Assembly (NCBI RefSeq): GCF_003431325.1
Contig: NZ_CP010515.1
Location: forward strand, 682,001-746,000
DNA length: 64,000 bases
DNA from: Acidilobus sp. 7A
GTDB taxonomy: Archaea > Thermoproteota > Thermoprotei_A > Sulfolobales > Acidilobaceae
Direction of reading: 5' to 3'
Position numbers and translations under genes: made by a program. Shown piece by piece: positions 11,166-22,900 of the stretch. Positions within the stretch are counted from its first letter, which is position 1, and each line of letters opens with the position of its first letter. The notes under the pieces are model-generated. The model saw only the letters and a program-made list of their open reading frames with translations, did not search any database and had not been told where the DNA came from.

Positions 11166-12467
11166 TTAGGCTTCATTGGGCTTGATATAGCTTGATATCA
11201 AGCCCTCCTCCCTTGGCTTCACAGCCCTCAGGGCCCCTTTCATCGAGGCCCGTATCACAGGGCTCCGCCCCCTCAGGGCAACCCCGACCCACAGCTCCCC
11301 CTTCGTCTCATCAGGGTCATAGCTGTGGGGAAATCCCCGCATCCTGAGGTACCTCCGGTATATGTTTACTGCGGCCACCTTCTGCCTGTCCAGCTCAAGG
11401 CCGCACCTTGGGCATCTGAACACCCTGCCCACTCGGGTCTTCACGACGTACCCGCATCGTGGGCAGGTGCGGGAGGTGTTCTTTGGTGAAACCCTTTCTA
11501 TAACGGCCCTCTCGGAGGCCTTTCCCTGGATGAGCTTCCAAGGCGTCCTGGCGTTCCTCTTCCTCCTGCCCTTAGGCTCTCTCCTACTGACTAAGTTCTC
11601 CTTCTCCAGGTCCTCAAAGACGTGGACGCTGTTCGGGAACAGCTTGGTCAGCCCGCTCGCCAGCTTGTTTATGAAGTCCTTCTCCCTGTTGCGCTCCCTG
11701 ACATTGTACTTCTCATAGACGTACTTCAGGCCCTTGCTCTGCGCTATTCTCTTCTTCCTCTCATAAACAATCTTCATGCTCTGCAGGGGCCTCAGGTCGA
11801 CCTTGATGAAGCCTACCCTAGGCGAGAACCCGTCGAGCGACAGCTCGTTGGAGTCCCACCCAATGACTTCTTTCACGTCTACGACTTTAGCTGTCTCGAA
11901 AGGTATAAGTATCCTGTCATCCTTCAATATGACCTCCCCAACCCTCCAGCCCTCAACCCTCCTGGCGAACCACCTGCCGTTCCAGGAGACCTCCACGTGC
12001 TCCCCTGGCCTAAGCGTGATCCTGATGCTCTTCTTGTCATAGTCCACCTTCATCAGCGTTGCCTTGCACCTCGCGAACCTTCTCTCGACCCTCGGCTTGA
12101 CCTTCCTGGCTTTCCCCTTGAGGTACCTCTTCCTCCAGGACTCCATCACGGAGTAAGCCGTCCTGATGGCAGCGTCTACCCAGTGGGCGGCGTACGGGCG
12201 GTCCTGAAGGAGGTAGTCGCGGAGCCTCCTCTTAAAGGACCTGTCCTTTGGCAGATACGGGACCTTGAACTTGCTGGGCGCTATTACTTGTCCCCCCTTC
12301 TCTACCTTGGGAAACCTGTACTTCCACTCGATGTTGTCCCAGATAACGTCTATTGCCCTCTGTAGGGTTCCCTGGTACCACGTTATCAGCTCGCTGACCC
12401 TTGGGTCGCTTATCGGCACTGAGTACATTCTGACCTGCTCAAGGGTCCTCAAGGAGCTTCCTGACAC
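11166..12467 (-). CDS. tnpB: TnpB RNA-guided nuclease of IS607 type
   Basis: A 433-residue OrfB/TnpB protein. The RuvC-like catalytic acids are in place: Asp in VIGWDSNELS (about residue 205), Glu in HVFEDLEKEN (about 285) and Asp in GLELDRQKVA (about 359). A zinc ribbon, CPRCGY...CPRCGL, lies before the last one. TnpB proteins cut DNA as directed by an omega RNA transcribed across the right end, and so keep the element in place after excision. The start lies inside tnpA. No end-hairpin motif of the kind seen elsewhere in this window follows the stop, so its guide RNA end differs or is lost. Confidence 0.92.
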   Translation of the reverse strand: MSGSSLRTLEQVRMYSVPISDPRVSELITWYQGTLQRAIDVIWDNIEWKYRFPKVEKGGQVIAPSKFKVPYLPKDRSFKRRLRDYLLQDRPYAAHWVDAAIRTAYSVMESWRKRYLKGKARKVKPRVERRFARCKATLMKVDYDKKSIRITLRPGEHVEVSWNGRWFARRVEGWRVGEVILKDDRILIPFETAKVVDVKEVIGWDSNELSLDGFSPRVGFIKVDLRPLQSMKIVYERKKRIAQSKGLKYVYEKYNVRERNREKDFINKLASGLTKLFPNSVHVFEDLEKENLVSRREPKGRRKRNARTPWKLIQGKASERAVIERVSPKNTSRTCPRCGYVVKTRVGRVFRCPRCGLELDRQKVAAVNIYRRYLRMRGFPHSYDPDETKGELWVGVALRGRSPVIRASMKGALRAVKPREEGLISSYIKPNEA

Positions 12468-13056
12468 CCTCTACCACCTTCTCATACTTATGGCTCCTCA
12501 TACCGTAGAGCTTTCCCGCGAAGTGGGATATTACTGTGATGAGGTCTTCTACAAGCTCCTCTCTAGGATCCTTGTCTTCGTGACTTAAGACAACTATCTC
12601 CACTCCAAAGGGTCTCAACAGCTCCTCAATCGTTTTAAAGCCAAATCTCGTTAATCTATCTGGGTACGCTATGACGATCTTTGATATCTTCCTCTCAACA
12701 GCTAACGTTAGTAACTTTTCGAATCCTCTCCTATCCTCATCTAATCCGCTTCCAATATCTGTCACCACTTCGTAATCAACTATGTTATTTTGCCTAGCCC
12801 AGTCCTCCAACACTTTAACCTGTCCCTCTAAGTCATCTCTTTGACTATTAGATGACGCCCTGGCATAGAGAACTACCCTCCTCTGTTTAACCACAACACC
12901 AATTAATCTCTCAACGTCCTCCTCTCTAAACCTCCACTTACCACCTGGAGTCAATACTGGCTTTATGTAGCCTCTTTTAACATAGTCCCTCAAAGTGGTA
13001 TAGCTAATGCCAAGCCTCTCACAAACCTCCTTAGGCCTCAGCGCCTTCGCTCCCAA
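12439..13056 (-). CDS. tnpA: IS607-type serine recombinase
   Basis: A 205-residue protein with an N-terminal MerR-like helix-turn-helix (RPKEVCERLGISYTTLRDYV) and a resolvase domain. The catalytic serine is in LYARASSNSQRDDLEGQ, followed by IVIAYPDRLTRFGFKT. It catalyses excision and insertion of the element. TTG 13056 is the likely start; GTTTATAG about 27 bp upstream is a TATA box, giving a leaderless transcript. Its codons are AT-rich (AATCTC, TCATCT) compared with all neighbours. Confidence 0.93.
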   Translation of the reverse strand: MGAKALRPKEVCERLGISYTTLRDYVKRGYIKPVLTPGGKWRFREEDVERLIGVVVKQRRVVLYARASSNSQRDDLEGQVKVLEDWARQNNIVDYEVVTDIGSGLDEDRRGFEKLLTLAVERKISKIVIAYPDRLTRFGFKTIEELLRPFGVEIVVLSHEDKDPREELVEDLITVISHFAGKLYGMRSHKYEKVVEGVRKLLEDP

Positions 13057-13142
13057 ATAAAAGAGTCAATATCAACCCTATAAACCTTTATGAAAAACAA
13101 AGCAGTTTCTCTACGGCGTGAGGCGTTGGCCCGACGGCCTGA

Positions 13143-13477
13143 CAAAACGAAAGGCAAGCCCTGCCCCTGGAAGGGACGGGGTAAAACATAAAACATCTGA
13201 GCACTTAAAGTTGCGTGGAACAAATAGTGTCCCCGCAAGGGGATACCCCACAGGGGCCCCGCATATCCCCGAGTCCCTGGGAGCTGGGAGGGAGGGCAAC
13301 TCCCAGCGAGGGGTAGGGGTAAAGGGCCGAAGGCCCGGCCCGCGGCCTACCGCTGGACGAGCGGAGCGGGGTGGGGTAAAACCCGCTAGCCGTGAGGTGA
13401 TGAAGGTGAGGGCGGTAAGCCGCAAACCAGTAAGCCGCCCTAAGGGAGCCCTCGCCCTTCAGGGCGGGGAGGAGGCC
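13143..13477 (+). ncRNA. Structured repeat A: candidate omega-RNA-like element
   Basis: A 335-bp block whose inverted relative is at 61691-62029. It starts CAAAACGAAAGGCA and ends in the tnpB-type end hairpin CTCGCCCTTCAGGGCGGGGA (13451-13470). A conserved CATAAAACATCTGAGCACTT (13187-13206) looks like a promoter, followed by invariant AACAAATAGTGTCCCCGC. Several stems are visible: CCCCGCAAGGGG, GCTGGGAG/CTCCCAGC, GGGCCGAAGGCCC and GGGCGG/CCGCCC. Compared with copy B, paired positions change together. It diverges from the IS607 tnpA. It is either a free-standing TnpB guide-RNA locus or a short non-autonomous element built around one. The weak open frames across it look like by-products. Confidence 0.55.
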
Positions 13478-14117
13478 AGAGCATAGCTACTGCGGCCCCT
13501 AGGGCCACAAGGCCCAGGCCCCCAGCCACGTCAATCCATGGCAGCGACAGGACCTCCTGCCCGTAGGCGTGGCCAAGCCACGCGAGCAGGGAGTTCCAGG
13601 TCACTGAGCCCGCCAGGGTGTAGGCTATGAACCTGGCGAGCCCCATCCTAAATATGCCCGGCGGCGCCGAGATGTAGGACCTCACGGCGGGCAGGACCCT
13701 GCCCGCCAGGACCGCGAGCTCCCCCCTGCCCTTGAAGAAGGCCTCGGCCCTCCTGAAGTCGGCCTCCCCCATTAGCTTGAGCGCAAGCCCCCTGCCGCCC
13801 AGGGCTGAGGCGTAGTAGAGCGCAAGGGAGCCCATGAGGTTGCCCAGCGTTGAGGCCGCCACGACGCCCAGGAGGCCCAGCTGGCCCCTGAAGTAGATGG
13901 CCGCCAGTGGCACGACGACCTCGCTTGGCACAGGTATGGCGGCGCTCTCTAAGGTCATGAGGCCGACGACGCCGCCGTAGCCCAGCTTAGCCAGGGCCTG
14001 GCCCGCGAGGTCAGTTATCAGCTTGACTATGTGGGCGTCAGGCACCTCAAGCCTATACGCCACTAAGCTTACACCAAGGAGGGCCACAGCTAGGCCAACG
14101 GCTGTTGACGCCCTCAA
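13440..14117 (-). CDS. DedA/SNARE-associated family membrane protein
   Basis: A 225-residue membrane protein. The DedA core is visible: LESAAIPVPSEVVVPLA, then LGNLMGSLALYYASALGGRG, then LAGRVLPAVRSYISAPPGIFRM and a C-terminal hydrophobic helix. DedA proteins act as lipid transporters or flippases in membrane homeostasis. TTG 14117 starts about 30 bp after a TTTTAAG TATA box. The last dozen residues (WPPPRPEGRGLP) are encoded by the end hairpin of structured repeat A, so the original C-terminus was replaced by the insertion. The core domain is complete, so the protein is probably still functional. Confidence 0.85.
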   Translation of the reverse strand: MRASTAVGLAVALLGVSLVAYRLEVPDAHIVKLITDLAGQALAKLGYGGVVGLMTLESAAIPVPSEVVVPLAAIYFRGQLGLLGVVAASTLGNLMGSLALYYASALGGRGLALKLMGEADFRRAEAFFKGRGELAVLAGRVLPAVRSYISAPPGIFRMGLARFIAYTLAGSVTWNSLLAWLGHAYGQEVLSLPWIDVAGGLGLVALGAAVAMLWPPPRPEGRGLP

Positions 14118-14265
14118 GGTAGGCCCACGCCCATCTCGCGCCCCGAGCTTAAAATCTAAGCTAAGTCCCCTGCGGCGAGCTATATAGAGCTGAGGGCCCC
14201 TGAGCCCAGGCAGGGGAAGCTGAGGGCGCTCCCTGCCTTAAGGCCTACCTTCAGGGGGCCGGGAG

Positions 14266-14787
14266 GTGGCTAAGACGGTAAACAACGCTGAGCTCGCGGA
14301 GAGGTATAACGCGGGGGCGGAGGCCTACGACGAGCTCTACGGGCAGGAGCAGCTCGAGAAGTACAGGGCGGCGCTGCCGCTCTTAAGGCCGAGGGGCAGG
14401 GTTCTTGACGTGGGCTGCGGCACAGGCCTGCTCATAGAGTACATGGCCTCCGAGGGCCTGCTTGACAGCGTTGAGAAGCTCGTCTGCCTTGACTTGAGCG
14501 CCTCAATGCTTGAGAGGGCAAGGGCCAGGGCCTCGAGGCTCTGCCCCGACACCTGCCTTGTAGTTGTTGGAAGCGCGGAGGCCCTGCCCTTCAGGGACAG
14601 GGCATTCGACGCGGCCTACTCCTTCTCAGTGATAAACCTGCTCGAGGACCCCGAGGCGGCCGCGTCGGAGGTGGCAAGGGTGTCAGCCAGCTCCCTGGTC
14701 ACCCTGCTTAAGGCCTTCAGGGTTCCCGAGATGAGGGGCTGGAGGGCGTTGGGTGAGGCCGGCAAGGACTTCACTTTTACAAGGTAA
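14266..14787 (+). CDS. SAM-dependent methyltransferase (class I)
   Basis: A 173-residue protein with motif I VLDVGCGTG, the acidic end of strand 2 in LVCLDLSASML, VGSAEALPFRDRAFD (motifs II/III) and AYSFSVINLLEDPEA. It fits the UbiE/BioC-like Methyltransf_11 group. At 173 residues it is short and lacks much after the core fold, so the target-binding part is minimal. GTG 14266 has GGGAG directly before it, closer than usual. It stands alone; the substrate is unknown. Confidence 0.85.
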   Translation: MAKTVNNAELAERYNAGAEAYDELYGQEQLEKYRAALPLLRPRGRVLDVGCGTGLLIEYMASEGLLDSVEKLVCLDLSASMLERARARASRLCPDTCLVVVGSAEALPFRDRAFDAAYSFSVINLLEDPEAAASEVARVSASSLVTLLKAFRVPEMRGWRALGEAGKDFTFTR

Positions 14788-14949
14788 GCGCCGAGTGACG
14801 TGTGTCCTTGTGGACCGCTAGACCCTATATAGTCTAGGCATAGACCATGGGCTAGTTGCCAGGGGTGTCGTATAGAATACAGGGAATTCCCTGTAATTGA
14901 AATTTAGTGAATACGTGACGACGTGATGTAGCGACCGTACAACACCTGT

Positions 14950-16380
14950 TTACCCTTGGTAGTTCACATAGGCTATGGCCCAGTTAGCCTGTCCAGCGCC
15001 GTTAGTTCCGGCAACACCAAACACGTAGTTGCCGCTGCCAGGCGGCGTAAAGTAGCCACTAAGGTTTAGTGTGAAGCTTGCAGACCACCCAGTGTTCATG
15101 TCATATGCCACGCCGCTGAGAGTGTTCGTGCTCGGGTTATAGGTGACAGTTATGCATATGTAGTCGCCTGGCCTCGGTTGGAAGGCGCCTGTTCCAATGC
15201 CGTCCCAGCCCGTGTATGGGTAACCAATGTTTGGTGACGGGTATGGGCTAACGTATGCTGTGAGTAAACCAAATAAACCAAACCAGTTTACCGTTACCTG
15301 CGCTAGCCACACATCCCACTGACCGGTAGCGCCTGTTGTATTGTATGCGTACTGCCACAGCGGGTTCCACTCAACAACGATATAGGTGCTTGTGCTCTGA
15401 GGAAACATAACGTCACCCTGAACGGGGGCTATGACCTGCGTTGTATTGGGGGAAGCTACGTAGGGCACACTGTAGTTATATTGAGGGCTTATGTTCCACA
15501 ATGAGGGCTTTAAGAACAGATACACTATGTACCCATCACCCACGTAAGGATATACCGATGAAGTTGATGGTATGCCGTTATATGAGTACACGCCTACCAT
15601 CGTTATTGTCAATGAACCCCCGCCGTAGCTGTTCTGCCAGAACATAGCTCCTGAGGACCAGGAGTAGTTCGAGGGGACCATCATGAGCACCGGCTGGTTT
15701 ATGCTTGACGACAGGGGCGACCAGTACTGGCTCGCCGTTGACGGGCCGTAGTAAACAGGCCACGAGCTGTTGCTTGACCCCTGATAGTCGCCCTGGTAGA
15801 CGTGCTTCACATAAATCGCGTTTTGGCCGTTGAGCAGGTTCATTACATTGGCGCTGGGCGGGTTTATGGTCTCGCTGAACGAGTACAGGAAGCTGACCCC
15901 GGGCGTATACGTGTAGCTGTACTGGCCGCTGAGCGTCAGCGTGCTGGTCACAGGCGAGCTCAGGGCCAGCCTCTGTATCATCAGGTAACTGCCCGCGCTA
16001 AGGCTGAAGGAGCCAGGCGATGGATATATCTGAGTGCCGTTAACGTAATCACTGACGACAGAGCTGCTGGAGCTGAGGGACATCGTCAGCGTACCGCTTA
16101 CAGACGAATTGAACTTGACGAGCGGCGTCGTCAGCACGTAGCCGCTGGTCGTTTCCAGCGTGTAAGCCGTTATCGTTGTCGAGAAGCCGCTGAGGGTCTG
16201 TGACCATGAGGAGCAGCCGCACGGGCACTGCCCAGGTATCACGGTTATCGGCGAGCTGACAGGCTCGACCGTGATCCCGGCCTGGTAGACGAACACCAGG
16301 TGGGCCATGGCGACGTATGCCGTTATTATTAGCGACAGGAGGACAATGACAAGAGCGAGGGGCCACCTACCCTTTTCCAT
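14950..16380 (-). CDS. Secreted glycoprotein with lectin-like C-terminus
   Basis: A protein of about 476 residues. An N-terminal hydrophobic signal (LALVIVLLSLIITAYVAMA) is followed by HLVFVYQAGITVEPV, nearly the same as the mature N-terminus of the 17969-18544 protein. A CPCGC cluster follows. The rest is rich in Ser, Thr, Tyr and N-glycosylation sites, with beta-strand patterns; the last third (YIVVEWNPLWQYAY to CITVTYNPST) resembles a lectin-like beta-sandwich. ATG 16380 is preferred over GTG 16386 because AAGGTGA lies at good spacing. It ends a four-gene cluster. It is exported and surface-located by inference; it may be a fibre tip, adhesin or glycan binder. Confidence 0.7.
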   Translation of the reverse strand: MEKGRWPLALVIVLLSLIITAYVAMAHLVFVYQAGITVEPVSSPITVIPGQCPCGCSSWSQTLSGFSTTITAYTLETTSGYVLTTPLVKFNSSVSGTLTMSLSSSSSVVSDYVNGTQIYPSPGSFSLSAGSYLMIQRLALSSPVTSTLTLSGQYSYTYTPGVSFLYSFSETINPPSANVMNLLNGQNAIYVKHVYQGDYQGSSNSSWPVYYGPSTASQYWSPLSSSINQPVLMMVPSNYSWSSGAMFWQNSYGGGSLTITMVGVYSYNGIPSTSSVYPYVGDGYIVYLFLKPSLWNISPQYNYSVPYVASPNTTQVIAPVQGDVMFPQSTSTYIVVEWNPLWQYAYNTTGATGQWDVWLAQVTVNWFGLFGLLTAYVSPYPSPNIGYPYTGWDGIGTGAFQPRPGDYICITVTYNPSTNTLSGVAYDMNTGWSASFTLNLSGYFTPPGSGNYVFGVAGTNGAGQANWAIAYVNYQG

Positions 16381-17182
16381 TATCACTCACCTTGTGACCG
16401 TTTCCTCCTCTGGCCTCTGGCATGTACTTGGCCATCTCTAGCAATGCCCTGGCGGCCCAGGGCCTCGTCCTCTCCAGCTCATCAAGGCTGACCCCGAACC
16501 TCCTCCTGGCCTCTGCGTCAGCCAAGTCCCTGAGCCTCGCCTCAGCTGCCGCCTCAAGCAGATATGACCTGGAGGAGGCCCCGTGGCCTGGGGCGAACCT
16601 GGCGTAGGTCTCAACAGCCTCAGCTATACCTGGGCTCCTGCGCCTCAGCGTGTCAAGGCTGACCCCGAACCTCCTCCTGGCTAGCTCCTCAGCAGCCTCG
16701 AGGGCCCTCCTGATCTCGGGCCACGTCGAGGCTATAAGGGTGGAGGCTGAGGCTATAGTCATCACTATAAGGGGAGGCAGGTAAATCGTGGGCCTTGCCT
16801 CAGGCACAACTAGGACTGAGTAGAGCGCGCCTGGGCTTCCGTAGAGCACAGCAAGGCCTCTGAGGTAGGAGAGGCCGCGGGCCAGCTCAAGGGCTACCAC
16901 GATGTAGTACGAAAGCGCTGCGATTGAGAGGTACGCCGCCCTGGACCTCACGCCACGCAGCGCATAGAAGGCGGCGGCCACCAGGAGGACCTCGGGCACT
17001 AGCATGGGCGGGTAGAGGCTGATCCTCACGCCAGTTGGCGTTGAGACGCCCACAATGAAGCCTATTTCAATACTGTAGTACCTGGCGCTGGCCGTCAGCG
17101 CTGGGAGGGCGGCAACCGCGCCCATTGAGGTTATTACAAGGAAGGCCGCGGCCCTTGTGACGGCCCTAGCGTTGATATGCAA
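16367..17182 (-). CDS. Membrane protein with two RRFGVSLD repeats
   Basis: A 271-residue protein. Four to five hydrophobic segments fill the first 170 residues (AAAFLVITSMGAVAALPAL, MLVPEVLLVAAAFYALRG and others). The C-terminal 100 residues are soluble and contain two copies of a motif, RRFGVSLDTLRRRSP and RRFGVSLDELERTRP, each followed by a helix ending in YARFAP or AKYMPE. I do not know the family. TTG 17182 overlaps the previous gene by 17 bp and the next gene by about 14-20 bp, so the three are translated from one message. It may anchor or assemble the secreted partners. Confidence 0.7.
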   Translation of the reverse strand: MHINARAVTRAAAFLVITSMGAVAALPALTASARYYSIEIGFIVGVSTPTGVRISLYPPMLVPEVLLVAAAFYALRGVRSRAAYLSIAALSYYIVVALELARGLSYLRGLAVLYGSPGALYSVLVVPEARPTIYLPPLIVMTIASASTLIASTWPEIRRALEAAEELARRRFGVSLDTLRRRSPGIAEAVETYARFAPGHGASSRSYLLEAAAEARLRDLADAEARRRFGVSLDELERTRPWAARALLEMAKYMPEARGGNGHKVSDNGKG

Positions 17183-17912
17183 GGCTTCCCACCTCCTCTG
17201 AGTAGTTGCCGTAGGGCGTGAAGTAGGTGACGTTAATTAGCCCCCTGACCTGGTAGACGTCGCCAGGGCTGAGCACGTCAAGGTTCTCGTAGCTGCAGGC
17301 CAGCGGCAGCGCCAGGTAGCCGGTCCCTGGGCCCACGAAGGCGCTCCTCGTTGAGTTGCAGGAGAAGCCAAACACTGTGCTTGACCTGTTGACGTTTATC
17401 AGGACTACGTCGCTGAGCGAGATCTCAGCCCTGAACGGGGTTATGTAGCTCACGTAGGCCACTGGAGAGTCATTGACTAGGGATATGTTAACGATTTTGA
17501 AGGACTCAGCGGCATATATGTACCTGAGGAAGTAAGAGAGGACGTAGCCTCTGCCCCCCTCCAGGGACAGGTTGACGACAACTATGGCCGGCCTCCCAAC
17601 TAGGTAGGGGCTGAGGCCCATGGTCAGGTTGTTGGATCCGCAGCCCACTCTGCTGAAGCTGGCCTCCTCAATAACCCTGCCGTTGAGCTCTATTAGCACC
17701 GTGGCGCTCTTAGGCTTCACGTGGCACTGCGTTATGTTAAGTGAGAGCAGCAGCCTGTCCCCCACGCCAGTGATGTTAGTCACGTTCACGTAAAGGGGCG
17801 GGGGGATCAGGCCAAAAAGCCTTGGAGGTAAGAACTTCACAGCCACGAGGCCCCCTAGGACGGCGACAACTATTACAAGGGCTGCATAGAGTAAACTGGG
17901 CTCGCCGTCCAA
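17166..17912 (-). CDS. Membrane-anchored extracytoplasmic protein
   Basis: A 248-residue protein with one N-terminal membrane anchor (LLYAALVIVVAVLGGLVAV) and an outer domain rich in N-glycosylation sites (NVTNITG, LNITQC, NLTMG, NRSS) and beta strands. Five or so cysteines (ITQCHV, VGCGS, FSCNST, LACSY) may form disulfides. Family not recognised. TTG 17912 starts 56 bp after the stop of the small pilin-like gene, and its own end overlaps the 271-residue membrane protein gene. The topology and context suggest a cell-surface complex. Confidence 0.7.
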   Translation of the reverse strand: MDGEPSLLYAALVIVVAVLGGLVAVKFLPPRLFGLIPPPLYVNVTNITGVGDRLLLSLNITQCHVKPKSATVLIELNGRVIEEASFSRVGCGSNNLTMGLSPYLVGRPAIVVVNLSLEGGRGYVLSYFLRYIYAAESFKIVNISLVNDSPVAYVSYITPFRAEISLSDVVLINVNRSSTVFGFSCNSTRSAFVGPGTGYLALPLACSYENLDVLSPGDVYQVRGLINVTYFTPYGNYSEEVGSLAYQR

Positions 17913-17968
17913 GGGGGCCCATCACCTCTGCGGCGCGGCAGCCCGCTCAGCTTATGGTTACTTGGGGC

Positions 17969-18544
17969 TTACGGGGTTGGGACGGTTACCGCGCTCTCGT
18001 TAGTTAGGCCAAAGTATATCGTGAGGGTCCCTGAGCTAGCGCCATATGGTATAGGGAGCGTTGGCTCTACCTGGAAGTCTACGTAGTAGGTTTGCCCTGC
18101 GGTCAGCTGGACGTAGCCGCTAGCCGTGCACCCTGAGCTAGTACTTGGAGTTATGATTATCGTCCCGGTCGGGCTGCTGGGGCTCCCTGAGGTCTGGTAC
18201 ACTATAAGCTTCACTGACGTGAGGAGGTTTAGGCCTGAGTAGGAGCAGGAGTCCACGTACAGGGTCGGCGAGCCCGCGTTCACCTTGACCGCAAGGGCCT
18301 GGTAGACGTAGGTCTCTGAGGAGTTAGTAATAGGTATAGTGAGCGTGACCTGCGGAGAGGTCTTGTTGGTGAGCGAGAGGCTGACAGCGCTGGCATCAGG
18401 GCCTTTCAGGAAGACGACGGGTGTCACGGGCTTAACGGTGACCTGAGCCTGGTAGACGAATATCACGTTAGCTGCCGCTATCGGCACGGCGAGGGCGGCA
18501 GCCAGGAGGCCTATGATTATCCCAATCCTACTGAGCCTGTTCAA
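17969..18544 (-). CDS. Small secreted, pilin-like or TasA-like surface protein
   Basis: A 191-residue protein. A signal peptide (IGIIIGLLAAALAVPIAAA) is followed by NVIFVYQAQVTVKPVTPV and an all-beta domain rich in Ser, Thr and Val (LSLTNKTSPQVTLTIPITN). The FVYQAxxTVxPV start is shared with the 478-residue protein of the same cluster, so both probably assemble or are processed alike. A short all-beta secreted protein with a free N-terminal strand resembles donor-strand fibre subunits of the TasA/archaeal bundling-pilus kind, but that is an inference. TTG 18544; an ACTTTTAAAATT TATA-like box lies about 45 bp upstream, so it is the first gene of the cluster. Confidence 0.65.
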   Translation of the reverse strand: MNRLSRIGIIIGLLAAALAVPIAAANVIFVYQAQVTVKPVTPVVFLKGPDASAVSLSLTNKTSPQVTLTIPITNSSETYVYQALAVKVNAGSPTLYVDSCSYSGLNLLTSVKLIVYQTSGSPSSPTGTIIITPSTSSGCTASGYVQLTAGQTYYVDFQVEPTLPIPYGASSGTLTIYFGLTNESAVTVPTP

Positions 18545-18650
18545 GTTATGTCACACCTACTGCTATATCAGCAGCTGTCCCTGCGCAATTTTAAAAGTTT
18601 TCTGTAATTAAAAACTCCTTTCCCTTAAAATGGCCTCGTAACTGTACGCC

Positions 18651-21416
18651 TTACTTAGACATAGCCAGCTCCAGGAGGTCGCCGGGTCTCAGGGAGAGGG
18701 GCTGAGAGAGCCTAACCCTGTCCCCCTCGGCGCTGGCCTCCACCTCTGAGCCGTTCACCTTGACCTCAGCCCGGCAGCCCGCGGCGCTAACCCTTATTGA
18801 TCTGAGCTTGAGCTGCGTCCCTTCCACGAGCCTGACCCTCACAGTGCCCGGGCAGGCCCCGTCCGACTCCACTAGGAGCAGCGAGCCGGCAACTAGGGCT
18901 GGCCCCCTGAAGCCGCTCAGCCTCGGCGCCACCGCCAGCTCCTCGGAGGCGCCGTCATACGCCACCCCGGCTAGCGCGTTAGGTATCGTGAGGGCCGCCA
19001 GGGGCCTTGAGTAGTGGCCGTCACACTCTAGGTGGTTGAAGTAGAGGCCCCAGGAGGAGTACCTGTCGTGTATGGACCTGAGCACCTCCAGGCCCTCCTT
19101 TACGAGCCCCTCATATATCATCTGGGAGGCCACCCCGAACTCGACGCCAGTCCACGGCGTGTCAGCCTGGGAGCCGACCCTGTTGACTATGCCCGTGCCG
19201 TTGGGCTCCTCCGTGTCACCAACCATTGAGGGCCTCTGGGCCCCTGGGTAGGTGCCGTTAAGCAGGCCCTCCCACCTCCTGAAGTTGGCCCTGTGGACCT
19301 CCCTGAGGGCTGACCTTACCTTCTCGGCGTCAAGCCCTCCCTCAACTCCCATCAGCCTCAGGTACCACTCGCCGGCCAGCTGGGCCGAGAGAACAGCCCT
19401 GTCCCTCAGGCCGCTCACGGGGTCGTACCAGTTGTCGAGGTAGCTGCCGTTCCAGAGCAGCCTGACCAGGCCCTCGTAGGCCCTCCCAGCGTCGGCCGCA
19501 AGGGCCTCTGCGCCGTCAAGCCTCTCCCTCCTGGCCGCCTCAGCCATCGCCCTGAGCGACGCCGCCCAGAGGTCGCCGGTGAACGAGGCGACGCCCACGA
19601 GGCTGAACGTGTCGAAGGTGTTGACTGAGTTCATGACGTACATGGGGCCCGAGAACAGGACCCTGGCGACGTTGCCGCTGTAGAGGCCCGTCAGCAGGCC
19701 CCCTGCGGAGGCATCAGCGGCGACCCTTGACATGCCGTCGTAGTCGGAGGGCATGTAGTGCTCTATTAGCCCGGTGCCGAGGGAGTCGTGCTGCCTCTTG
19801 GTCCCGCTCACCACCGTCATCATGGCGTTCCAGAGAGACCTGAGGAAGTCCCTGTCCCCGGTGGTATGGTAGGCGAGCATGGCGAGGAGGAGGAACTCAG
19901 GCATGAGGTCGTTCCTGTCGTACGTGTCTATGAGCTCAAAGGATGCCCTGAAGGAGTGCGGCACCCTGCCCGTGGGGTCCTTGCCGGTCCTCCTCACGAT
20001 CTCCGCTATGGCCGCTGAGAGCCTCTCCGGGTAGTTCTGTATGGCCGGGTCCCTCCTCAGCATCTCCCTGTAGAGGCTCATGTTCTCCGGGTAGGCCAGG
20101 GCGAACAGCTCATACCAGTAGTGCCTGTCGGGCCTCAGTATGTGTCTGGCCACGTCCTTAACCGCCGCCTTGACGAGCTCCGGGTAAAGGTTCACGAGGC
20201 CGGCGAAGGCCCAGAGCATGACGTCAACCGTGTTCAGCCCGCAGCACCCTGGCCCTCCCTCCCAGACGCCGAAGTGGCCGTCCCTGGTGAGCCACGTGAG
20301 CTTAGGCAAGCTGGTGAGCTGGGCGCTCACTAGGTCAGCCACGTACTGCGGGTAGGAGACGTCGTAGAGCGCCTGGAAGACCCTCTCGGCCCTCCCAATT
20401 ATGTCGCTTGTCAGCGCGTAGTCTATGACCTGCTCGACGCCGGAGAAGAAGTTCTCGTAGTAGTGCCCCACCCTGACGCCGGCGGCGTCCATGTGGTTGG
20501 GGAAGTGCCAGGCTATGACAAGGTTGAACTCGGCGGAGGAGCCCGGCTCAAGCGTAGCCATGTCGGAGGCCAGGGCAGCGAACACGTCAAGGGTTGACGA
20601 GGAGGCCTCAGTTGCCCCGGAGAGGGCCCCGTCGCCCCTGAAGTCGACGAGGAGCCTCCTCAGCGCGTTGACAAGCTGCGGCCTGTCCGACGAGCTGACC
20701 GTGAAGGCAGAGCCCGTGGCCCTCCCCTCCAGCGCCACCGCCAGGGCGCCGCCGAGCAGTGGGTGCCTCTCTTCAACGCCCTCGGCCCTCATTATTATTC
20801 CTGTCCACCTGCCGGCGGCGACTACCTGGCTCCTCGCCCTGGCCCCTGCCGACCTGGCGGGGTTCCTTGAGACTACCATAACTGAGGCCCTGACCCTTGA
20901 GCCCCCGTTGTTAATCACCTTGAGCCTGAGGGGCACGGCGGGCGTTGATGAGGCCCTCAGGTCGCCCGGGACCAGCGGCGAGGCCAGCTCGGCGACGGCC
21001 TTAACTCCGAGCTCGTCCAGGGCCGAGTCCCTGTAGCTCAGGGTCACGACAGGGTACCTGACCTCCATCTCTATAGCCTCAACAGGCTTGGCCCAGGGCA
21101 GGTGGTAAGGCTCCATGACGACCCAGGGCCCGCAGCCCCTGTACGTGTAGTCCTCGCAGCTGGAGTACCAGAGGCCCGTGAAGAGCCCCCTCACGAGGGG
21201 CTCCTCGCCGTCGCGCTCAACCCTGAGGAATATAACAAGGTCGTCTGGCCCCATGAACCACTCCGGCTGGCCGTAGCCAGACCACGGCCTGTTGTTGAAT
21301 ATTAGCCACTCCTTGAACCTCCCGTCCGGGCCAACCTCGAAGGAGCCCGTGCCCACGCCCCCAAGCGGCACCCCTGACCTAGGCGTGTCCTGGTAGATTA
21401 CTCGCAAGCGCAACAC
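18651..21416 (-). CDS. GH116 (DUF608) beta-glucosidase/glucosylceramidase-like
   Basis: A 921-residue protein. The N-terminal signature GVPLGGVGTGSFEVGPDGRF belongs to GH116, the GBA2-type family, which includes the Sulfolobus enzyme SSO1353. The likely nucleophile is Glu in VWEGGPGCCGLNTVDV (about residue 384), and the acid/base Asp lies in SDYDGM (about 559), by analogy with known members. There is no signal peptide, so it should act inside on imported glucosides or xylosides. GTG 21416 sits about 25 bp after CTTATTAAG, a leaderless arrangement. It is near, but not in, the main sugar-use locus. Confidence 0.9.
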   Translation of the reverse strand: MLRLRVIYQDTPRSGVPLGGVGTGSFEVGPDGRFKEWLIFNNRPWSGYGQPEWFMGPDDLVIFLRVERDGEEPLVRGLFTGLWYSSCEDYTYRGCGPWVVMEPYHLPWAKPVEAIEMEVRYPVVTLSYRDSALDELGVKAVAELASPLVPGDLRASSTPAVPLRLKVINNGGSRVRASVMVVSRNPARSAGARARSQVVAAGRWTGIIMRAEGVEERHPLLGGALAVALEGRATGSAFTVSSSDRPQLVNALRRLLVDFRGDGALSGATEASSSTLDVFAALASDMATLEPGSSAEFNLVIAWHFPNHMDAAGVRVGHYYENFFSGVEQVIDYALTSDIIGRAERVFQALYDVSYPQYVADLVSAQLTSLPKLTWLTRDGHFGVWEGGPGCCGLNTVDVMLWAFAGLVNLYPELVKAAVKDVARHILRPDRHYWYELFALAYPENMSLYREMLRRDPAIQNYPERLSAAIAEIVRRTGKDPTGRVPHSFRASFELIDTYDRNDLMPEFLLLAMLAYHTTGDRDFLRSLWNAMMTVVSGTKRQHDSLGTGLIEHYMPSDYDGMSRVAADASAGGLLTGLYSGNVARVLFSGPMYVMNSVNTFDTFSLVGVASFTGDLWAASLRAMAEAARRERLDGAEALAADAGRAYEGLVRLLWNGSYLDNWYDPVSGLRDRAVLSAQLAGEWYLRLMGVEGGLDAEKVRSALREVHRANFRRWEGLLNGTYPGAQRPSMVGDTEEPNGTGIVNRVGSQADTPWTGVEFGVASQMIYEGLVKEGLEVLRSIHDRYSSWGLYFNHLECDGHYSRPLAALTIPNALAGVAYDGASEELAVAPRLSGFRGPALVAGSLLLVESDGACPGTVRVRLVEGTQLKLRSIRVSAAGCRAEVKVNGSEVEASAEGDRVRLSQPLSLRPGDLLELAMSK

Positions 21417-21466
21417 CGCGGGGCTGTCGTAGGGAATAGCTTAATAAGACGGCATTGCTATCACCT

Positions 21467-21502
21467 GACCTCCTCCCCGCCCTAGAAGGGCGAGGCTTTC
21501 AG
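21467..21502 (-). repeat. Solo end-hairpin of a tnpB-type transposon
   Basis: Read on the minus strand: CTGAAAGCCTCGCCC, loop TTCTA, GGGCGGGGAGGAGGTC. It differs from the 5437 copy by paired changes in the stem (GCCC/GGGC against GCC/GGC) and shares the same outer bases. No open frame for a transposase is close; it lies between the GH116 and glycosyltransferase genes. Confidence 0.6.
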
Positions 21503-21600
21503 CTTAAGTTCAAGCAATTGTTGTGGCGCGCCCCTTTACCCATTTTATCTTTCAGGCTGCGCCCATTATGGGGGCTAAACTCGTGGACCTGCCATCGATC

Positions 21601-22728
21601 TCAGCCCTTGAGGGCCTTTATGACCTCCTCCAGCCTCCCCTTAAAGGCGTCGTAGCTGAAGCCCTTGGCCACCTCCCTGGCCCTCGCCGAGAGCTCCTCC
21701 AGCCTCCCCTTGTCGCTCATGAGCGACCTTATTATTGACGCCGCCTCCTCAGCGTTGGCATAGCCAAGGCCCTGGTCCACCCTTGAAGCTATGTCGGTCC
21801 AGCCTCCCCCGTCCCTGTAGACAACCGGCACGAGCCCTGCTGCAGCGGCCTCAGCAATGGCAATTCCAAAGTGCTCAGCGAAGGGAGGGTGAAGGTATAT
21901 TGAGGCCTGGGACATGAGCTCAAGTATCCTCCTCCTTGGCACGTCGGTCTCAAGGTGGAAGTTGCTTAGGCCCTCAGCCCTCTCCCTGATCTCCCTTAAC
22001 ACGGGCCCCGAGTACACGCTGGTGCTGCCTACCAGGTAGAACTCTGCCTCAGGCACGAGCCTTGCCACCTCAGCTATGGCCGTGAGCCTCTTCTCAGGGG
22101 ATATCCTGCTAACGGTAAGCACAACCTTCCCCCTGTCCCCTCCCAGTAGGAGGAGCTCCTCTACGTTAACCGGGGGGTAAACAACGTAAATCCTCTGGCT
22201 ACCATACGCCTTCCTCACGTACTCGAAGGTCCAGGAGCTGTTGGTCATAACGGGCCTCGTGCTATCAGCCAGCGACCTGGCCCTCCTCACGATGAGCCAG
22301 TCGTAAAGCCTCCTGAGGCCGCCAGCCCTGGCCTGTAAGGCCATGTAGTCTATGAGGGCGGGGAAGTGAATATATGACGCGTCGGCCCACCTGAGCGGCA
22401 CGTTGCTCTGCGTCTCGACAATTACGTCGTAACGCTGCCTTAGCCCCTCGGCGTACCTGGCCAGGTAGCCCATTGTCAGGAGCCTCCTGTAGCGGACCAG
22501 GCGGCCGCTCCGCCTGAGCAGCCTGCTGGTCAGGGGCTCGCCCAGGACCTCAGGCCTCGGTATGCCGTTCATGCCGCTGGTTAACACCTCCCAGGCCCTG
22601 TCATCGACGTGGGCCGTGTAGAGGCCGACCTCATGGCCTAGGTCTTTAAGGGCCCTGTACATCTCTAGGGCCAGCCTCTCCCCTCCGCCGGCCTCCTCGA
22701 AGAGCGTGTGTACCAGCGCTATCCTCAT
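21601..22728 (-). CDS. GT4 family glycosyltransferase
   Basis: A protein of about 375 residues starting MRIALVHTLFEEAGGGERL, the GT-B N-terminal glycine-rich loop. The C-terminal half has VVLTVSRISPEKRL and AEHFGIAIAEAAAAGLVP with the E-x7-E motif of GT4 (ALG2/ALG11-like mannosyltransferases). It uses a nucleotide sugar to extend a lipid-linked or surface glycan on the cytoplasmic side. I choose ATG 22728 because GCCGGAG precedes it and AGCTTATAAC, about 35 bp away, sets transcription near 22735; the frame is open further upstream but would precede the promoter. Confidence 0.88.
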   Translation of the reverse strand: MRIALVHTLFEEAGGGERLALEMYRALKDLGHEVGLYTAHVDDRAWEVLTSGMNGIPRPEVLGEPLTSRLLRRSGRLVRYRRLLTMGYLARYAEGLRQRYDVIVETQSNVPLRWADASYIHFPALIDYMALQARAGGLRRLYDWLIVRRARSLADSTRPVMTNSSWTFEYVRKAYGSQRIYVVYPPVNVEELLLLGGDRGKVVLTVSRISPEKRLTAIAEVARLVPEAEFYLVGSTSVYSGPVLREIRERAEGLSNFHLETDVPRRRILELMSQASIYLHPPFAEHFGIAIAEAAAAGLVPVVYRDGGGWTDIASRVDQGLGYANAEEAASIIRSLMSDKGRLEELSARAREVAKGFSYDAFKGRLEEVIKALKG

Positions 22729-22819
22729 TATCTCCGGCGGAACTGACGACGTCAAGGTTATAAGCTTACCTGGGCCCAGGCCTTTAACTTCGTCCGCCAG
22801 GAGCCCTGAGGCGAAGGGC

Positions 22820-22900
22820 ATGGACAGGGACGACCTAATGACGCTGACCATCATAGTCCTCGGGGGCCTGGGCGCCGTGGCCCTCCTCCTGGGGCTGTGA
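22820..22900 (+). CDS. 26-residue single-span membrane microprotein
   Basis: MDRDDLMTLTIIVLGGLGAV, then ALLLGL: an acidic start then one membrane helix. The ATG lies about 29 bp from the centre of CTTTAAC (22789-22795), the right place for a leaderless message. The stop TGA overlaps the GTG of the next microprotein gene. Existence is inferred from promoter position, overlap and hydrophobic pattern; no family is known to me. It could be a small subunit of a membrane complex such as an oligosaccharyltransferase or translocon, but there is no direct evidence. Confidence 0.5.
   Translation: MDRDDLMTLTIIVLGGLGAVALLLGL

Follow-up and report, generated by a model that had tools for sequence, protein, structure and literature searches.

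Four minus-strand genes at positions 14950-18544 of a 64,000-nucleotide stretch of the Acidilobus sp. 7A genome (contig NZ_CP010515.1, positions 682,001 to 746,000; hereafter the window) encode the Acidilobus counterpart of the archaeal "thread", the chain-like surface fibre known from Sulfolobus. An earlier sequence-only reading had described them as an unrecognised system and suggested a single filament, in which a major subunit and a larger secreted protein have the same mature N-terminus and are encoded together with two membrane proteins. This functional guess was a good one and was supported, the system being real and well conserved. It is, however, of an already known type, since P0001 belongs to a published thread family and the same neighbours are present in Sulfolobus acidocaldarius. 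The positions of the four open reading frames were confirmed as follows.

17969..18544, minus strand: P0001, thread subunit (major filament protein), 191 amino acids, with a Sec signal
17166..17912, minus strand: P0002, glycoprotein anchored in the membrane, two beta-sandwich domains, proposed to act in assembly or anchoring, 248 amino acids
16367..17182, minus strand: P0003, four-transmembrane (4-TM) protein whose C-terminal tail is charged, 271 amino acids
14950..16386, minus strand: P0004, large secreted protein that may be a minor or end subunit of the thread, 478 amino acids

The genes had been said to be linked by overlaps. This is true of only three of the four, because a gap of 56 nucleotides separates P0001 from P0002; P0002 and P0003 overlap by 17 nucleotides, and P0003 and P0004 by 20.

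The assignment is carried by P0001. Full-length matches to Sulfolobaceae relatives were obtained, the best at 1.7e-15, and it is this direct match that links P0001 to the family. The phmmer comparison of P0001 with 7PNB, the S. acidocaldarius thread, gave a weak E value (3.2), yet the alignment was full-length and collinear. A family profile made from 18 relatives matched residues 1-204 of 7PNB, the thread subunit Saci_0406 solved by cryo-electron microscopy (cryo-EM), at 2.7e-55, a value that is evidence for the family, because the profile contains close relatives of Saci_0406. By its sequence, then, P0001 belongs to the archaeal thread family and is a full-length homologue of Saci_0406, and the filament nature of the system is well supported. 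Directly after the Sec signal of P0001 comes a VIxYY-type beta strand at the N-terminus, aligned at the sequence level as A-[DN]-V-I-[YF]. The structure of the archaeal thread and its donor-strand complementation were published in 2022, as shown by cryo-EM for Saci_0406 (PMC9715654).

One feature of the S. acidocaldarius thread is not shared. An isopeptide bond between Asp24 and Asn57 has been proposed there, and is not a defining trait of the family; in Acidilobus the Asp24 column holds Asn (at the mature N-terminus) or His, and the Asn57 column is a gap, its loop being deleted. A covalent cross-link of this kind is therefore not predicted from the sequence of the Acidilobus thread. Asn57 is also missing in seven of nine Sulfolobaceae subunits. 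A swapped arrangement, with the N-terminal Asn and an internal Asp as partners, was dropped because of the same gap.

The common mature N-terminus of the two secreted proteins, which had been pointed out previously, turned out to be real. Straight after the signal, both P0001 and P0004 start with FVYQA[QG][VI]TV[KE]PV (residues 29-FVYQAQVTVKPV-40 of P0001 and 32-FVYQAGITVEPV-43 of P0004), and BLASTP of one against the other over signal and start gave E = 3e-6 as a single comparison. The predicted donor strands were placed as follows.

18401..18469, minus strand: predicted donor strand of P0001 at the mature N-terminus, residues 26-48, NVIFVYQAQVTVKPVTPVVFLKG, from the alignment to the Saci_0406 donor strand (exchange would follow that of the homologue)
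16237..16302, minus strand: predicted donor strand of P0004, residues 29-50, HLVFVYQAGITVEPVSSPITVI, from a donor profile of the mature part only

Two secreted proteins might nevertheless resemble each other at this point merely through similar signal peptides, and the four genes might form an S-layer, enzyme or transporter cluster instead of a filament; that scans of Pfam and NCBIfam returned no curated family at threshold for any of the four proteins would suit such a cluster. The signal-peptide artefact is excluded, since a profile of the mature start only, made from thread subunits with every Acidilobus sequence left out, still scored P0004 at 12.9 bits. Among 579 other genes of the 64 thread loci compared (144 of which have an N-terminal hydrophobic stretch), only three reached at least 5 bits, and these three were, by position and sequence, large or cap genes of thread loci missed in labelling. 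A filament subunit whose structure is known was moreover matched by profile over its full length, and the gene set is conserved across the order; on these grounds a non-filament cluster is highly improbable. The donor strand is common to the large protein and the thread, both in Acidilobus and across the order.

Further along P0004, the C-terminal 272 columns of its alignment matched a 444-residue thread-gene neighbour in a Sulfolobus relative (hhalign, E 1.6e-14), and matches to the P0004 profile adjoin the thread gene in two Acidilobus and two Sulfolobus genomes. The lectin-like end attributed to this protein was not confirmed: the one PA14 match lay below the cut-off (21.4 against 24 bits), spanned 29 of 147 positions and was repeated in none of eight aligned relatives, so that the end of P0004 is not assigned to PA14/GLEYA. 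Searches of the PDB by sequence with P0004 and the large proteins of its relatives gave nothing significant. The C-terminal domain of P0004, compared with the domain inserted in the large proteins of relatives, scored 21.5 against at most 17.1 for shuffles, which is borderline, and no relationship is claimed. A further P0004 homologue with a thread-like start (SDVLYFYKGKINV) was seen at L118:4656-6050, on a contig other than that of the thread gene of the same genome. The P0004 C-terminal domain was also seen outside thread loci, in membrane-anchored Sulfolobaceae proteins (L119, L120, L121 and L122), the protein of L121 starting with a zinc ribbon.

The thread family was found in 77 of the 229 genomes of the class that were searched and in 39 of 87 genera; none was found in the viral contigs searched. 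The 64 loci, the window included, were compared with genes labelled by profile, and a recurrent cassette emerged: the thread, a large secreted protein that carries the donor strand of the thread, a membrane-anchored protein and a 4-TM protein. An anchored-type protein and a 4-TM gene accompany the thread in 51 of the 64 loci, so that the gene set is indeed conserved together. The anchored protein comes in different forms: the P0002 form (P2) in 13 loci, all of Acidilobus and Sulfolobaceae; a SipW-like signal peptidase fused to an ectodomain (SIP) in 38; and the ectodomain alone (P2t) in five. The other eight have neither P2 nor SIP or P2t, some of them being cut by contig ends. By hhalign, SIP is homologous to P2t (E 4.6e-13). 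Three peptidase motifs (Ser, His and Asp) are all present in 21 of the 38 SIP proteins, and most others have two of the three; no P2 or P2t protein has any of them, and P0002 is thus not a SipW-like or other signal peptidase by this measure. In the SIP-type loci the large protein is made up of the donor strand, then an inserted domain and, C-terminally, a region that is related to the globular domain of the thread (E 2.5e-7; 49.5 bits against at most 12.7 for shuffles).

The membrane proteins of the cassette were largely as had been described. P0002 has one N-terminal hydrophobic helix and ten N-glycosylation sequons, against a shuffle mean of 1.9 (0 of 2000 shuffles as high), and would by its sequence be an anchored glycosylated protein; no significant excess over shuffles was found in P0001 (three sequons) or P0004 (eight). 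It matched its Sulfolobaceae neighbours by hhalign at E 1.4e-8. The structure predicted from a four-sequence alignment (mean predicted local distance difference test score, pLDDT, 73.6) has a helix at residues 5-27 followed by two beta-sandwich domains. P0003 is a multi-span protein with four hydrophobic segments, and both copies of its RRFGVSLD repeat were confirmed.

16652..16675, minus strand: first RRFGVSLD repeat, P0003 residues 170-177
16481..16504, minus strand: second RRFGVSLD repeat, P0003 residues 227-234

The P0003 tail had no match elsewhere in the genome. P0003 shares its place and topology with the 4-TM genes of the 51 loci.

From these data a mechanism can be proposed. P0001 would be secreted by Sec, and its signal would presumably be removed by the housekeeping signal peptidase I, since a single match to the archaeal enzyme (TIGR02228) was found in the genome, about 100 kb from the locus. 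By analogy with its homologue Saci_0406, it would polymerise head-to-tail, the mature N-terminal strand of each subunit filling the groove of the next. P0004, which carries the same donor strand ahead of a large ectodomain, may be a minor subunit at one end of the thread, an initiator or tip that is possibly adhesive. P0002, with its one-helix anchor and two beta-sandwich domains facing outward, and P0003 would form the membrane site that holds the emerging subunits or hands them over, a role suggested by the genes that accompany the thread across the order. Most relatives of the order would instead use a SipW-like signal peptidase carrying an ectodomain, and signal cleavage would there be coupled to assembly. 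We consider it likely that the cassette encodes a thread held together by donor-strand complementation, with a large end subunit and with the membrane pair as its assembly site. A stronger version, in which P0002 (SIP in relatives) and the 4-TM protein make up a dedicated archaeal donor-strand machine, is put forward tentatively: a membrane-tethered chaperone and a platform might take over each subunit at signal cleavage, start the thread on the large minor subunit and do the work of both chaperone and usher.

Several observations weigh against this account. No significant sequence match was found between P0003 and the other 4-TM proteins, and no thread-like globular domain was detected in P0004 itself, whose AlphaFold2 model, made for the protein alone, was not a usable structure (pLDDT 34.8). 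Homology of P2 with the SIP ectodomain is only suggestive at the sequence level: the match was collinear and scored 29.9 against at most 14.9 for shuffles, with E 0.0028 and a probability of 10.8. The P0002 and P0004 homologues are not both next to the thread gene everywhere, and a P0004 homologue next to it is lacking in several Sulfolobaceae loci. Finally, the P2 homologue of S. acidocaldarius is split, yet threads are made.

P0002 and P0003 might also have some other surface role, such as signalling or the attachment of completed threads to the envelope, and simply accompany the thread gene. No enzymatic domain was found in either protein with Pfam or NCBIfam, the fold matches of the P0002 model are generic Ig/FN3 tandems only, and the P0003 tails of Acidilobus and Sulfolobaceae differ, all of which would agree with such a role. 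Against it stand the co-occurrence of these genes in 51 of 64 loci from many families and the signal peptidase-ectodomain protein that fills the equivalent position in 38 loci, and we regard it as unlikely.

The place of P0004 in the fibre was also considered. Rather than a tip adhesin, it could be a base anchor at the cell-proximal end, stopping growth and tying the fibre to the membrane pair. In seven loci (L166, L169, L170, L172, L175, L189 and L191) the 4-TM and large proteins form a single fusion whose join has a cleavage-like and a donor-like motif, and these fusions place the donor strand right behind a membrane helix, in keeping with a base anchor; PMC9715654 leaves the polarity of the thread undecided, and hence also which end is capped by a subunit having only the donor strand. 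Against this, the fusions retain the signal-cleavage motif A-[SG]-x-F where the two proteins join, so that the large protein is probably released, and a large multi-domain ectodomain resembles adhesins more than anchors. A basal position seems rather doubtful.

All four genes of the cassette have counterparts by the thread gene of S. acidocaldarius, P0003 by place and topology only. The genome compared (G198) was taken to be that of strain DSM 639, the tags Saci_0404 to Saci_0409 being inferred from gene order; its thread gene contains the compared 60-residue stretch of 7PNB. The cluster holds a 442-residue P0004 homologue, presumably Saci_0404, a 179-residue thread-like protein, the thread gene, a split P0002 homologue, presumably Saci_0407/0408, and a divergent 4-TM gene, so that homologues of P0004 and P0002 flank the thread gene as in the conserved neighbourhood of Saci_0404, 0405 and 0407/0408. 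In the literature, 0405 is a putative cap, and 0407 and 0408 are fused in some species (PMC9715654), which agrees with the split seen here; the functions of 0404, 0407 and 0408 have been termed elusive (PMC11607397). At L116:5652-6483 the P0002 homologue is divided into 183 and 115 amino acids by one extra T in a T-run, with the intact gene of a close relative (L068:9071-9901) as reference. Slippage, annotation of a real break or dispensability may account for the split. In Sulfolobaceae thread loci, a MinD/ParA-like ATPase of about 195 amino acids adjoins the 4-TM gene (L057:4412-4999, L058:899-1486, L060:4037-4618 and L117:4668-5300), as recognised by Pfam AAA_31/CbiA for L057 and by sequence for the other three; there is none in the Acidilobus locus.

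Compared with the S. acidocaldarius thread (Saci_0406; 7PNB, 8RZL; PMC9715654, PMC11607397), the Acidilobus system has the homologous major subunit and the same Sec signal cleaved before the donor strand. It differs in that its four genes form one linear cassette, the P2 gene is intact and the locus has no separate Saci_0405-like cap. Threads are treated as a class separate from bundling pili and TasA-camelysin filaments (PMC9715654). The archaeal bundling pili (AbpA, Pyrobaculum calidifontis) and TasA-TapA-SipW of Bacillus are alike in having a donor-strand filament and a minor partner, and the SIP-type relatives also have a SipW-like signal peptidase in the cassette. Such a gene had been reported as absent, which holds for the Acidilobus locus and the Sulfolobaceae loci examined but not for most relatives in the order (38 of 64 loci). 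No match to the Pfam camelysin family was obtained for the window proteins at E values up to 1, which sets them apart from TasA-camelysin filaments. P0001 and P0004 are not of the type IV pilus kind either, as their hydrophobic stretch precedes the cleavage site, and, as previously noticed, no standard pilus ATPase or prepilin peptidase is present among the genes at 11166-22854.

Chaperone-usher pili (type 1 and P pili) work in a similar way, with a donor strand, a major subunit and a large minor subunit (FimH), and their FimC/PapD invite comparison with a protein whose two beta domains lie outside the membrane. The thread cassette nevertheless has no usher, and no sequence homology was found. 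P0002 and P0003 had no Pfam match at threshold. P0002 is anchored in the membrane, and the folds that its model matches are generic; no PapD-like chaperone was among the matches listed, which rules nothing out. The large protein of the thread has a donor strand, unlike FimH.

The pathway of thread assembly is unknown according to the 2022 and 2024 papers (PMC9715654, PMC11607397). The new part of the present analysis is the order-wide cassette, with candidates for the end subunit and for assembly, and the extension of threads to Acidilobus and many further families. The candidates that keep company with the thread gene across the order are concrete (the large donor-strand subunit, the anchored P2/SIP protein and the 4-TM protein), and each is deletable in S. 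acidocaldarius, where gene deletion is routine.

An alignment of the Acidilobus and Sulfolobaceae threads, used as the query, returned four named related loci. In the thread tree, which is unrooted, a branch supported at 100/99 separates Acidilobus and Sulfolobaceae from other members of the GTDB family of Acidilobus, whose loci are SIP-type or without both genes. Transfer of thread genes between thermoacidophiles would be one reading of these sequences, and is not demonstrated because the tree is unrooted. One Acidilobus relative (genome G008) has two thread loci, L054 and L055, both with stretches that are given as N or truncated at a contig end. A 3508-base contig (L074) of a Candidatus Rehaiarchaeum fermentans metagenome-assembled genome assigned to Parvarchaeota also carries a thread and cap pair of the Sulfolobaceae kind; wrong binning is the likely explanation, and transfer to a symbiont is possible.

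Rfam gave no match, and scans for sigma-70-type promoters and terminators stayed near chance, the consensus type not being apt for archaea. In the Acidilobus loci the cassette is kept and the flanking genes change. A glycoside hydrolase family 116 gene (18651-21416, minus strand) lies directly upstream of the thread gene in the window and is absent from the other Acidilobus loci. On the other side, an IS607-like element (11166-13056, minus strand) comprises two overlapping genes, one for a serine resolvase with a MerR-type helix-turn-helix and one that is TnpB/Cas12f-like.

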